NCBI GenBank assembly: GCA_013335405.1
Contig: JAAXVR010000012.1
Coordinates: 1-34,364 of the forward strand
Direction of reading: 5' to 3'
Length of the DNA stretch: 34,364 bases
Source of the DNA: Chlorobiaceae bacterium
GTDB lineage: Bacteria > Bacteroidota > Chlorobiia > Chlorobiales > Chlorobiaceae
Both the position numbers and the translations under genes were made by a program. Below, piece by piece: positions 25,599-33,322 of this stretch. Within the stretch, counting starts at the first letter, position 1. Every line of letters begins with the position of its first letter. Below the pieces are notes generated by a model. It saw only the letters and a program-made list of their open reading frames with translations, did no database searches and was not told where the DNA came from.

Positions 25599-27026
25599 AT
25601 GGGCATAACCCCGCAGGACCTCTTCAATCTTCTCGGCATACCTCCTGAAACCCCGCTCGATATCGGGAGCATGTGCCGAAGGCTGAGGCCGGTCATCTAC
25701 CCTGGCTTACACCTTTCTGAACGGCTGGAGGGCTTCTGTGACGCCCTTTTCTCCGCAATGCAGTCGCTTGGGGTCAGAGTGCTCGTGCACGAGGAGGCAA
25801 CAGGCAGTGACGGACGGTTCCCTCCCGGAACGGTTATTTTCGCTCCGGGACACTTTACGGACGGCATGCTCGCCATCAACAGGGTGTCTACGCTCTACAA
25901 CAATATCATTGTCGGAATCTACGATGAACAGCCGCCCCTCGATCAGGATTCGCTGCCGCAGGAACGGCTCGATGCGATTGTCTCGAGACTTGCAAGGGAA
26001 ATGGTGCACATCCTGATTTACGTGACCGAGCGATCCTGGACGGTCTGCACGATGAACGGCAGCGTCGTCACCTTCAACACCCCTTACCCGTCGCGGGAAG
26101 CGGTGCGGAATTCCCTGGTGCCGAAAATATCCGCCCAGGTCGTCCCGCCCGGTCCGGACGACATAGACATTGAGCAAGGTGCTCTCGACATATGCACGCC
26201 GGAATATCTCGACGCCGCCGAGGATTTCATGCAATGCAGCGCCCTCTGGAAAAAAAACCATTGTCTTGTAACGCATACATCGACAGACGGTCTCGAATAC
26301 CGCAACGAGTATTACCGGCGCATTGTCGCTCGTTACCTCGACCGGCGCAGCGGCATGAGCTACGGTTTCTTTGCGCGCCAGAGGCCTCTGGCCGCAGCTC
26401 CTGCGCTCAGGGAAAACGAGGTGGTACCTGAAGAACTTGCCGATAAGATGGCGAAAATGAGTGTCCTCGGGCACACCATCCTGGTGCCTGTTCCAACGGT
26501 CAGCGTGATCACGACACGGTCGGGATGCAGAAAACATCATCTCGATCCGGAAAAGGATCTCGTTGAAATCGGGCTGACCGGAGGAAGGGCATGGATGAGG
26601 ACCTCCGGAAATACAGCGGGAAGAGAAGATTCCAGGCCGTCATTCGATACCCTGACAATCCTTGCTCATGCACTCGGGAATGCCTTCGCTGCAAGCATCC
26701 TGAAAACGTTCAGCCCGGAATCACTGTTCCCGGCACACCTTGAATGGAAAGGCGCATCCATGACCCACTGGCATGATTATCCGCCTGATGAACTGCTCCC
26801 CGAAGGCTATCACAGGCACGGAAACATGAACCCTCCGGTTTCATGCTCGACACCCCAGTCGGCAGTCTTCAGCATTACAGGAAAAATTGACGCACTTGAA
26901 AATGCGATTGAACAAGGCAAAGAGTACCGGGGGGATGTGCATATCGAACCGAACCACGGCACAAATATCGTGGGAATGCTGTCACTTGCCGCAACAGCGG
27001 CGGCCATGAACCCCTCCCCATCCTGA
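25599..27026 (+). CDS. Uncharacterised 475-residue protein downstream of nadK
   Basis: I recognise no domain. The protein has no signal peptide and no clear membrane helix apart from a weakly hydrophobic stretch at the very C terminus (I-V-G-M-L-S-L-A-A-T-A-A-A-M). Visible landmarks are an N-terminal helical region (L-F-N-L-L-G-I-P-P-E), a beta-rich middle with V-I-F-A-P-G-H-F, T-S-T-D-G-L-E-Y-R-N-E-Y, several Cys spread singly, and a His-rich patch near residue 400 (T-H-W-H-D-Y, then Y-H-R-H-G-N) that could bind metal. It starts 12 bases after nadK and is likely the last gene of the pyrE-tyrA-nadK operon. The long intact frame and normal codon use support a real gene. Confidence 0.85.
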   Translation: MGITPQDLFNLLGIPPETPLDIGSMCRRLRPVIYPGLHLSERLEGFCDALFSAMQSLGVRVLVHEEATGSDGRFPPGTVIFAPGHFTDGMLAINRVSTLYNNIIVGIYDEQPPLDQDSLPQERLDAIVSRLAREMVHILIYVTERSWTVCTMNGSVVTFNTPYPSREAVRNSLVPKISAQVVPPGPDDIDIEQGALDICTPEYLDAAEDFMQCSALWKKNHCLVTHTSTDGLEYRNEYYRRIVARYLDRRSGMSYGFFARQRPLAAAPALRENEVVPEELADKMAKMSVLGHTILVPVPTVSVITTRSGCRKHHLDPEKDLVEIGLTGGRAWMRTSGNTAGREDSRPSFDTLTILAHALGNAFAASILKTFSPESLFPAHLEWKGASMTHWHDYPPDELLPEGYHRHGNMNPPVSCSTPQSAVFSITGKIDALENAIEQGKEYRGDVHIEPNHGTNIVGMLSLAATAAAMNPSPS

Positions 27027-27672: not shown

Positions 27673-28512
27673 TTATGGTGTTTTGAATGAATGAAGCGAC
27701 TGCACACACCGGTAGAGCTGCAGCAGTTGTTTGACTATGGAACCGAAATCCTTCAGCGCAATCTGGACGGCAGCGTCGGAAAGGGCTTTCGGGGGATCCG
27801 GATGAACCTCGAAAAAGAGGCCGTTCACGCCAGCGGCAACCGCTGCCCGAGCGAGAGGAAGCAGGAACTCGCGCTCCCCTCCGGAAACTCCTTCACCCGC
27901 GCCTGGAAGCTGGAGACTGTGCGTTGCATCGTACAGGACGGGAAATCCCGAATCGGCCATTTTGACGACACCCCTGAAATCCACGACAAGATTATGGTAA
28001 CCGAAACTCGAACCCCTTTCGGTCAGCAGTACCCTCTCGTTGCCCGTCTGTACCACCTTCGCTGCGGCAAGAACCATATCTTCCGGGGCCATGAACTGTC
28101 CTTTCTTGATGTTCACGGCAAGACCGCTCTCGCCTGCAGCGACCAGAAGGTCCGTCTGGCGGCAGAGAAAGGCAGGTATCTGCAGGAGATCGACGTAGCG
28201 GGCGGCAAGCGTGACCTCTTTCGTTTCATGCACGTCGGTAGTCACCGGCATACCATGGGCCTCCCTTACAGCTGCCAGCACCTCGAGCGCGTCCGCATCC
28301 CCTATACCTTTGAACGAGTTACCGGACGAACGGTTCGCTTTCCTGTAGGAACCTTTGAAAACAAAGCGCACGCCTTCCTCCCTGCCTATACGCTCCAGCT
28401 CACCGGCTATTTCGAAAGCCATTGAGCGGCTTTCTATGACACAAGGCCCGGCAATAAGCAGAAGAGCATGTTCATCGGGAACCATGAGAGGACCGAGAGA
28501 GAACTTTTGCAC
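27673..28512 (-). CDS. kdsA: 2-dehydro-3-deoxyphosphooctonate aldolase (KDO 8-phosphate synthase)
   Basis: KdsA condenses PEP with arabinose 5-phosphate to form KDO 8-phosphate, a committed step to the LPS inner core. Motifs are [38 protein letters not shown] and D-A-T-H-S-L-Q. All PEP- and phosphate-binding residues I can judge are intact. The Cys of the G-P-C motif and a C-terminal E-V-H-P-D are present, the latter pointing to the metal-dependent class. GTG 28512 gives 279 residues; TTG 28548 and ATG 28485 are in-frame alternatives and no Shine-Dalgarno decides. Transcribed with the KdsC-like gene and divergent from the clpB half. Confidence 0.95.
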
Positions 28513-28554: not shown

Positions 28555-28583
28555 TTGTGATTTTCATATTCTGAGCCTTAAAT
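28555..28583 (+). promoter_or_regulatory. Candidate promoter for the clpB half gene
   Basis: TTGTGA (28555-28560) and TTAAAT (28578-28583) are separated by 17 bases, and the 5' leader would be about 40 bases. It lies in the 118-base gap between divergent kdsA and the ClpB half. No CIRCE element is seen. Confidence 0.35.
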
Positions 28584-28630
28584 TTACAACAATATTTGTT
28601 ATTCACAGCCCGAATCAAATCCGAAAAAGC

Positions 28631-29962
28631 ATGAGTACCGCAGATACGAAACAAAGACTTGAAGAAATCGAGAAGCAGCTCGCCAACCTTGCAGAGGAAC
28701 AACGATTGATCAAGGCGAAATGGGACAGCGAAAAGGAACTGATCAAAGCTTCGCGTGACCTCAAATCGCAACTTGAGCAACTCAGGGTCCAGGCCGAAGA
28801 GTTCGAGCGTCAGGGTGATTACGGCAAGGTAGCCGAGATCCGTTACGGAAAAACCGTACAGATTGAACGTGAGCTCGAGGATAACCGCCGGAAAATCGAG
28901 GAAAAGAAAACGGCGGGCGACCTCATCATGAAAGAAGAGATCGATGCGGAAGATATCGCCGACATCGTTTCCAAATGGACAGGCATCCCTGTCAGTAAAA
29001 TGCTGCAGTCAGAACGCCAGAAACTGCTGCATATTGAGGATGAGCTGCACCGGAGGGTAATCGGGCAGGATGAGGCGGTCAGCGCGGTCAGCGACGCGGT
29101 AAAGCGCTCCCGCGCAGGTATGGGCGATGAAAAACGCCCGATCGGATCGTTCATATTCCTCGGTCCTACAGGTGTCGGGAAAACCGAGCTTGCAAGGACC
29201 CTCGCAGAATACCTCTTTGACGACGAGGATGCGATGATCCGCATCGACATGAGCGAATACATGGAGTCGCATACCGTGAGCAGGCTTGTCGGGGCTCCCC
29301 CGGGCTATATCGGTTACGAGGAAGGGGGGCAGCTGACCGAAGCGGTCAGGCGCAAGCCTTTCTGTGTGCTCCTGCTCGACGAAATCGAAAAAGCGCACCC
29401 CGACGTCTTCAACATCCTCCTGCAGATTCTTGATGACGGACGCCTCACCGACAGCAAAGGCCATATGGTGAACTTCAAAAACTCCATCATCATCATGACC
29501 AGCAATATCGGCGCCCAGCTCATCCAGTCGGAGATGGAGAAAATCGACGGAGAGGATCGTGACGCCGTTCTTGCAGGACTTCAGGATAAGCTTTTCCAGC
29601 TTCTGAAGCAGAGAGTGCGTCCCGAGTTCCTCAACCGCATTGACGAAATCATCCTCTTTACTCCGCTCACGAAAGATGACCTGAAAAAAATCGTTCTGAT
29701 CCAGTTCGAACGCATCAGGGCTACGGCTCTGCGCCAGCACATCAGCCTGACGATCTCCGATGCGGCGGCCGACTGGCTCTCCAACGCAGGGTTCGACCCT
29801 GCATTCGGCGCACGTCCGCTCAAACGTGTCATGCAGAGGAAAATCACCAACGGGATCTCCGAGCTCATCCTCTCCGGGGAAGTCCAGGAAGGCGACAATG
29901 TTTCCGTCGATCTTGCCGGGGAGGAACTGATCCTTAAAAAAACGGACGAACAACCTATCTGA
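28631..29962 (+). CDS. clpB: ClpB C-terminal half: middle coiled coil plus second AAA+ domain only
   Basis: Full ClpB (about 860 residues) is a Hsp100 disaggregase with N domain, NBD1, a coiled-coil middle domain and NBD2. This 443-residue protein starts inside the middle domain (coiled coil about 5-100), continues with W-T-G-I-P-V-S, and has a complete NBD2: Walker A G-P-T-G-V-G-K-T at 178-185, pore loop G-Y-I-G-Y, Walker B L-L-L-D-E-I-E-K, sensor 1 T-S-N, arginine finger R-P-E-F-L-N-R-I-D, and sensor 2 G-A-R-P-L-K-R. No N-domain or NBD1 remnant lies upstream, where only 118 bases separate it from divergent kdsA. I recall that Chlorobaculum tepidum also has two short ClpB entries, so a split protein is likely a lineage trait. 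It heads an operon with the GH3 gene and sixA. Confidence 0.93.
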
Positions 29963-31096: not shown

Positions 31097-31629
31097 AAAC
31101 ACTCTACATCGTCCGGCACGCTAAGTCCGGCTGGGAAAACGGCGTCAGGAACGATTTCGATCGGACACTCAGCGCCCGAGGTCTCAGGACTGCTCCCGTA
31201 ATGGCTAATGTGCTGAAAGAAAAAAAGATACTGCCCGACCTGATAATTTCGAGCCCTGCAACGAGGGCACTTACCACTGCGAAGCTCTTTTCGGTCATCC
31301 TCGGGTATCCGGAAAAACGTATTGAAGAGAGAATGGAGCTCTACGATGCCCACGCCGGGACGATCTTCGAAACGCTCAGGCAGATCTCCGATGAGTGCAG
31401 CACCGTGATGATCTTCGGCCACAACCCGTCGCTCCTTGAGTTCGCAAGCCTCTTCGGCGGAAAAAAAATAGATGTCCTCGTTCCCTGCGGTGTTATCCGC
31501 ATCGATCTGGACATAAGTTCATGGAAGAAGAGCACCTGTCAGGCGGGCAAAAACATCTGGTACGAGATGCCTGAAAAATATACCTACCCGCAACTCAATC
31601 CCGCTCAGCCTTCGGATCCCGGGTCATGA
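31093..31629 (+). CDS. SixA-like histidine phosphatase
   Basis: This 178-residue protein is a short histidine phosphatase: V-R-H-A-K-S with the phospho-accepting His9, [10 protein letters not shown], and the second catalytic His in F-G-H-N-P-S-L. SixA removes phosphate from the His of Hpt domains or of the nitrogen phosphotransferase system. Members are usually near 160 residues; here about 20 extra residues form a C-terminal tail. ATG 31093 overlaps the GH3 stop as ATGA. Its 3' end overlaps the convergent gpsA by 35 bases. The partner protein is not evident from this window. Confidence 0.9.
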
Positions 31630-32596
31630 GATCCAGGATCGCCTGCTCGACGGGCTTTTTCTCGAAAAGCATCTCGTAAACCGCCTGGGTGATGGGCATA
31701 TCGACACCGAGAGTCCGGCCGAGATCGTAAACAGATCTTGATGTGAGAACTCCTTCAGCGACCATATTCATGTTGCTGACGACGTCATCAAGCGAGCGCC
31801 CCCTGCCGATTTCCTCCCCCACATACCGGTTCCTGCTGTGACGGCTCAGGCAGGTCACCACGAGATCGCCGATACCGGACAGTCCGGAAACGGTCATAGG
31901 GTCTCCGCCAAGCCTGATGCAGAGCCTCGAAATTTCCGCAAGTCCCCTGGTGATGATCGCTGCTTTCGCGTTGTCGCCGAAGCCTATGCCGTCAGAAATA
32001 CCGGCAGCAATGGCGATGATGTTTTTGACCGAACCGGCGATTTCCACGCCAACGATATCGGTATTGACGTATACCCTGAACCTGCTTGTATGGAAAACCT
32101 CCTGTACCTTTTCCGCCGTTTCGAGCGAAGATGAAGAGGCTACGACCGTGGTGGGCTGATCTTTTGCTACCTCTTCAGCATGGCTCGGGCCGTAAAGGGC
32201 TGCAATCCGGTTTGCACGGAGACCGGGAAGCGCCTCCAGAAGCACTTCGGATATACGCTTGCCGGTACCGAGTTCGATACCTTTGGCTACATTTACCAGG
32301 ATTTTACCATCGAGGTCCTTGCCGCCGAAACCTCCCACGGTTTCACGGACGGCCTGTGAAGGTACTGCGGTCACGATCATCCCCGACCATGATACAAGGT
32401 CTGCGAGATGATCGACGACCTCCAGGTTTTCCGGGAAAAGCACTCCTTTCAGGTACCGGCAGTTCTCTCGCTCTTTGTCGAGAAGCGCAGCAAATTCGGG
32501 GCGATGTGCCCAGAGGCGAACCTGATAGTTTTTTTTGGCAAGAAGCACGGCAAGGGTCGTCCCCCAGCTGCCGGCCCCCAGAACGGCTATATTCAT
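31595..32596 (-). CDS. gpsA: Glycerol-3-phosphate dehydrogenase [NAD(P)+]
   Basis: GpsA reduces dihydroxyacetone phosphate to sn-glycerol 3-phosphate, the phospholipid backbone. The 333-residue protein has G-A-G-S-W-G-T at the N terminus (cofactor loop), [15 protein letters not shown], the active-site Lys region in [12 protein letters not shown], and R-G-L-A-E-I. It follows plsY by 18 bases, placing the enzyme that makes G3P beside the one that acylates it. The 3' end runs into the convergent sixA. Confidence 0.97.
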
Positions 32597-32614
32597 CAGG
32601 TCGGTACCGGGGCG

Positions 32615-33322
32615 TTACGAATGCTTGCCGAAGGTGATCCGGTTTTCCGTTCCGGAAAAAAGTCTTTTTATGTTTGCGCGATGCGTATAAAGGATCGCAA
32701 GCGCGACAACCAGCCCGAAAATCAGCAGATGGTAGTCGAGGCTGTCATGAAAGGAAACCGGCGATCCGAACAGCCGGATGTAGTAATCAAGACCGCCGCC
32801 AAGCTCGAAAATATACTTGCGGATCGCAATGATGACCGGGAATGCGATTGCCGCAAGAATCGAAGCGACCGAAACATAACGGGAAAGGAAAACCGTCAGC
32901 AGGAAAACGCCGATAACCATCAGCATGCTGACAGGAGCGATGCCGATAAGCATGCCCGCAGCGGTGCTGACGCCTTTTCCTCCGCGGAACCCTGCAAACA
33001 GGGTAAAGACATGACCGATAACGGCACTGATGCCCGCAAGCAGTCGAAGGGCGACATCGTTGATGTCGGGAAAGGAATCGATCGGGTGGTGTCTGAAAAA
33101 GGCAACCACAGAGACGGCAGCCACGACGCCCTTGACGATATCGATCAGCGTCACCGCAAGGCCCGGCTTCCAGCCGAGAACCCTGAACGCATTGGTTCCG
33201 CCCGCATTGCCGCTGCCGAATTCACGGATATCGATGCCCTTGAGCATCTTTCCGGCAAGCAGGCTCGTAGGAATAGAGCCCACGATATAGCTAACCAGCA
33301 GAATTGCTATCAACGTTACCAT
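32615..33322 (-). CDS. plsY: Acyl-phosphate:glycerol-3-phosphate acyltransferase
   Basis: PlsY acylates G3P at position 1 using acyl-phosphate made by PlsX. The 235-residue integral membrane protein has [20 protein letters not shown] and [18 protein letters not shown], the known conserved motifs for substrate binding and catalysis, in cytosolic loops between about six or seven hydrophobic helices. It is slightly longer than the usual 200 residues because of a loop near the C-terminal third. It lies between purM and gpsA on one strand. Confidence 0.96.

Follow-up and report, generated by a model that had tools for sequence, protein, structure and literature searches.

Bacterial ClpB is normally a single chain. 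The window analysed here (the whole 34,364-nucleotide stretch of contig JAAXVR010000012.1 from a Chlorobiaceae bacterium) carries a gene for only the C-terminal part of this protein. Is such a gene one component of a two-subunit ClpB assembled from separately encoded halves, a single-ring disaggregase in its own right, or what is left of a broken gene? An earlier note on this DNA had put forward the first two readings.

A free-standing gene for the C-terminal half of ClpB

The open reading frame at 28631-29962 (forward strand, as are all features within it) encodes a protein of 443 residues, hereafter referred to as the C-half, the N terminus of which falls within the ClpB middle (M) domain and the NBD2 of which is intact. 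Its domain matches are AAA_2 and ClpB_D2-small, the domain search found no N domain, no NBD1 and no ankyrin match, and the protein aligns with the ClpB model TIGR03346 (853 positions) from 431 to 852 (618 bits). This is the architecture that the earlier note had described, and the upstream DNA is, as claimed there, free of any decayed NBD1 remnant. In its AlphaFold2 model (mean pLDDT 88), the C-half opens with a long helix (residues 3-61) followed by a second (residues 64-94), which by comparison with intact ClpB are helices L2 and L3 of the M domain (28637-28912). Helix L1 is absent and is encoded instead in a partner gene.

NBD2 comprises a Walker A motif, GPTGVGKT (residues 178-185; 29162-29185), a substrate pore loop, GYIGYEEGG (residues 225-233; 29303-29329), a Walker B motif (29369-29398) and a sensor 2 motif, GARPLKR (29807-29827); sensor 1 (N292; 29504-29506) and the arginine finger (R336; 29636-29638) are present too. 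All the residues tested in the Walker motifs, sensors, pore loop and arginine finger (including K184, T185, Y226, D250, E251 and R395) are invariant in the 38 free-standing C-halves. Two M-domain sites, placed by alignment offset, are each retained in 37 of the 38: K45 (28763-28765), equivalent to the regulatory residue K476 of E. coli ClpB, and Y72 (28844-28846), equivalent to Y503, an activity and DnaK site in motif 2. With dN/dS at 0.03-0.05 (against near relatives, the C-half gives 0.028-0.049 and its partner 0.027-0.032), the gene is indeed, as had been proposed, one with preserved ATPase motifs and under selection.

The N-terminal half is encoded elsewhere in the genome

The genome from which the window derives (2.47 Mb in 62 contigs; 99.99% complete) was searched with the ClpB/ClpC lid family, which identified two places, one frame each on contigs C29 and C40. 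The C29 frame encodes a tandem-AAA protein of 897 residues that is of the ClpC type and 46% identical to the C-half; no full-length clpB, the finding that would have undone the idea of a split, turned up in this genome. The C40 frame is a free-standing gene that contains Clp_N, NBD1 and the NBD1 lid and ends early in the M domain, and is thus the partner that the earlier note had suggested looking for. This protein (the N-half) has 438 residues from its most probable start, MQFDPNRFT, the longest frame being 454 residues. It matches positions 1-428 of TIGR03346 with 672 bits, so that the two halves tile the model (1-428 and 431-852) and between them lack no catalytic or structural element. Their summed score is 1290 bits, and a full-length match (N domain to D2-small, above the cut-off of 1232 bits) is reached only by the pair and not by a single protein.

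Several features mark the pair as ClpB. The M domain, which is missing or short in ClpA and ClpC, is long here and includes motifs 1 and 2; the N-half contributes L1, the C-half L2 and L3. Each protein also supplies one AAA+ module, and across the two the Walker A and B motifs, sensors and arginine fingers are intact. The joined halves fall among Bacteroidota ClpB in the tree, and the best solved relatives of each are ClpB and not ClpC (the C-half is 51% identical to T. thermophilus ClpB, 1QVR, by structural alignment). Compared with bacterial ClpB as represented by TIGR03346, 1QVR and E. coli 4CIU, the joined halves have every domain, every catalytic motif and the regulatory residues of the M domain, and differ in being two genes at separate loci with the L1-L2 turn broken and in having several new residues at the N terminus of the C-half. 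The Walker A, sensor-1 GATT and ERRF motifs of NBD1 are conserved in 34 of 34 N-halves, as is E435, the equivalent of E. coli E432 in motif 1. A DnaK gene is encoded in the same genome.

Flanking DNA

The C-half gene is divergent from kdsA (27673-28512, reverse strand). The gap of 118 bases between them that the earlier note had measured is correct provided that the GTG at 28512 is the kdsA start codon. The plausible promoter said to lie in this gap fared less well, as a sigma-70 consensus scan of the region upstream of the C-half gave no match; the gap does contain a block at about 28578-28608 (TTAAATTTACAACAAT..TTATTCACA) that is strongly conserved in the upstream alignment across Chlorobiaceae and is a candidate promoter region of either the C-half or the divergent kdsA. 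Co-regulation of the halves was also considered and rejected, given the empty sigma-70 scan and upstream alignments of both genes that yielded no convincing common motif. That the halves are unlinked and lack a detected shared regulatory motif counts against the two-subunit reading. On the far side of kdsA, a 475-residue protein with no Pfam match (25599-27026, forward strand) adjoins kdsC at each of the five Chlorobiaceae loci that were compared and is 52-56% identical to its counterparts in the other four.

Distribution of the split in Chlorobia and beyond

Among 98 genomes from nine genera of Chlorobia, the class to which the window belongs, the C-half is present in 91, the N-half in 92 and both in 85; no genome lacks both halves, and no intact ClpB turned up in any of the 98. 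Both halves occur in all nine genera sampled. Loss of one half was considered for the three genomes in which a missing half could be checked (G072, G009 and G017) and was rejected, as each absence coincides with a contig end; in G017 the contig still includes the beginning of the C-half before it runs out.

A wider survey, of a phylum sample and then of the class of genome G301 (another Bacteroidota class), identified an N-half-type frame in ten more families (f17, f19, f24, f31, f32, f35, f39, f47, f48 and f49; about 57 genomes), and nearly all of the genomes searched in these families also have a separate C-half. In Chlorobia and the ten families alike, the halves always lie at separate loci and the break is always the same. 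The earlier suggestion of a clade-wide split is thus right for Chlorobia and too narrow, since other Bacteroidota lineages share it. Neighbouring families, together with Rhodothermus, Fodinibius, Sphingobacterium, Dysgonomonas, Hymenobacter and Algoriphagus, have an intact ClpB of about 860-880 residues. Four genomes from split families (G119, G401, G383 and G362) have neither half, which fits joint loss. Conversely, one draft scored as 100% complete (G200) contains only the C-half, which counts against the two-subunit reading. In one genome of the other class (G257) the C-half is fragmented, and in the single-contig genome G131, which has an intact N-half frame, it is frameshifted (C1:984704-985964, reverse strand), by error or recent decay. 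A Bacteroidota-type split ClpB is also found on JADZEY010000041.1, from a metagenome-assembled genome labelled Armatimonadetes, a label that is probably wrong.

This recurrence bears on whether a frameshift or misassembly simply broke an intact clpB, leaving a pseudogene or an artefact. Such breakage does occur: in an otherwise intact lineage (f10), the clpB of genome G239 appears as two overlapping adjacent frames. The halves described here are separate loci on different contigs, with new start codons and heads and low dN/dS, and the same break recurs in some 90 genomes of Chlorobia and some 57 from elsewhere. A sequencing error that had severed the frame from upstream NBD1 sequence, as the earlier note had allowed for, fails to account for about 90 Chlorobia genomes, and we give the artefact reading next to no credence. 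The G239 frames themselves (locus L187; 4464-7087, reverse strand) are broken within the L1 helix, close to the site of the natural cut, through sequencing error or a recent frameshift.

The break maps to the tip of motif 1

Aligned to T. thermophilus ClpB, the halves correspond to residues 4-424 and 426-844 and meet at 424/426; aligned to E. coli ClpB, the N-half extends up to 433 and the C-half starts from 436. In all split genomes aligned, the N-half ends 1-7 residues past the sequence REALKRE (13 in one exception) and the C-half starts 7-15 residues ahead of the leucine of an RLxxI motif. In a model of the intact Rhodothermus ClpB (mean pLDDT 84.6), L1 spans residues 411-433 and L2 residues 436-489, and the turn between them (434-435) directly follows E433, the final residue of its REAVKRE. 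Mapped onto this model, the natural cut therefore coincides with the two-residue turn between L1 and L2, known as the 'distal loop', where motif 1 has its tip. The earlier note had the break correctly inside the M domain; its position is now refined from an arbitrary site in the coiled coil to the turn between two helices.

Motif 1 (E410-Y455 of E. coli ClpB) keeps the M domains repressed, and its deletion results in hyperactive ClpB (PMC4023160). DeSantis et al. found the distal loop to be critical for Hsp70 collaboration and to contact NBD2 (PMC3887210). As mutation or deletion of motif 1 or the distal loop upsets the regulation of intact ClpB (PMC4023160, PMC3887210), a break at this loop could alter function: the halves would still assemble, and the broken hairpin would give a machine with weaker self-inhibition, exchangeable rings or less dependence on DnaK. 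This variant of the two-subunit reading, with which it is compatible, appears rather unlikely to us, in that L1 and the equivalents of E432, K476 and Y503, residues of normal regulation, are all kept, suggesting ordinary regulation.

The free L1 helix is conserved as part of the machine would be

In the N-half, L1 has become a free C-terminal helix. Its mean pairwise identity in Chlorobia (0.904) equals that of NBD1 (0.904), and identity directly past L1 falls to 0.39. In the other split lineages, L1 identity is 0.78, compared with 0.80 in intact relatives. The simplest reason for keeping L1 as a free tail is that it still packs against L2 of the C-half.

The two halves might instead act singly, with the C-half a single-ring disaggregase comparable to mitochondrial Skd3/CLPB and the N-half a separate single-ring ATPase. 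Each half does have complete catalytic motifs, and Skd3 is an existing single-ring Hsp100 disaggregase with an NBD2-like AAA+ ring (PMC7343390). Skd3 differs in that it contains ankyrin repeats and lacks an NBD1 partner; in the present case, the partner gene exists, the halves abut without any such added domain, they co-occur and co-disappear, and the free L1 tail is constrained like NBD1, for which there would be no reason if the halves never met. Independent action is accordingly improbable in our view. Of the two readings in the earlier note, the two-subunit option is strongly favoured now that the partner has been found, and the single-ring disaggregase is disfavoured.

We consider it highly likely that the two proteins are a split ClpB, a two-subunit machine made from separate genes that is rejoined non-covalently and has kept its partnership with DnaK. 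L1, at the C-terminal end of the N-half, would zip onto L2, the long helix that opens the C-half, just as it does in the unbroken protein; NBD1 would stack on NBD2, and six N-halves and six C-halves would form an ordinary double ring, its substrate channel passing through both tiers. The rebuilt machine would dissolve aggregates together with DnaK. This assembly, its stoichiometry, its disaggregation activity and its dependence on DnaK are what we infer; what the analysis shows directly is that the halves are complementary, occur together, are under purifying selection, keep their motifs and are divided at the L1-L2 turn.

Number of origins

We compared a ClpB tree (83 sequences, halves joined) with an RpoB tree used as the species tree. 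The split sequences form four groups in the former and three in the latter, and the AU test rejects a single split clade in both (p = 0.011 and p = 0.009, respectively); a single ancient split is thus not favoured. In one genome of the survey, rpoB is broken into three successive fragments close to the end of a contig (L337; G329:C52:6948-10408), probably through assembly or frameshift errors. Because the trees reject one split clade, the gene was probably divided on two or three separate occasions, each time at this turn. The deep branches of the trees are short, and gene order points the other way: gpsA and plsY, which lie beside the C-half in the window (31595-33322, reverse strand) and in Chlorobiaceae, also flank it in families f17, f19, f24 and f32, and were never seen near an intact clpB in the loci examined, so that their shared presence counts against separate fissions.

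In family f47 the halves are 6-9 kb apart on one strand. Mobile insertion as the cause of the split was rejected: the genes tested between the halves in G301, a member of this family, are ordinary (a lipid kinase, a phosphoesterase, a histidine kinase, a glycosyltransferase and an epimerase), with no transposase match among them. Repeated fission at one turn would fit a cut-tolerant site. Somewhat speculatively, ClpB may have been cut more than once at this turn and the open motif-1 hairpin put to new use, for example to let rings exchange, to set the ratio of NBD1 to NBD2, or to loosen self-inhibition and the need for DnaK.

Discussion

The closest precedent for two polypeptides jointly carrying NBD1 and NBD2 is artificial. 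T. thermophilus ClpB that had been split by design reportedly keeps its chaperone activity without covalent linkage, according to the title of Beinker et al. (2005). The engineered cut lies C-terminal to the M domain, and the NBD2 construct comprises residues 520-854 (PMC3940203); nature has cut at the motif-1 tip instead, which leaves most of the M domain with NBD2. In the open-access literature we found no paper describing a natural split ClpB. Half-length database entries named ClpB1 and ClpB2 exist for Chlorobaculum tepidum, a near relative, and are probably the same two genes; we found no open-access discussion of them as one split enzyme. In the count of a 2007 survey, C. phaeobacteroides was the sole member of the Chlorobi with ClpB (PMC1887533), and surveys with full-length models will score bacteria with a split ClpB as being without it.

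The coupling of the two rings in ClpB and Hsp104, and the role of the motif-1 hairpin and distal loop, have been studied through engineered cuts and mutations. Whole lineages retain a ClpB that is cut at the distal loop and in which selection on both parts is strong, and thus provide natural proteins with which ring coupling can be tested.
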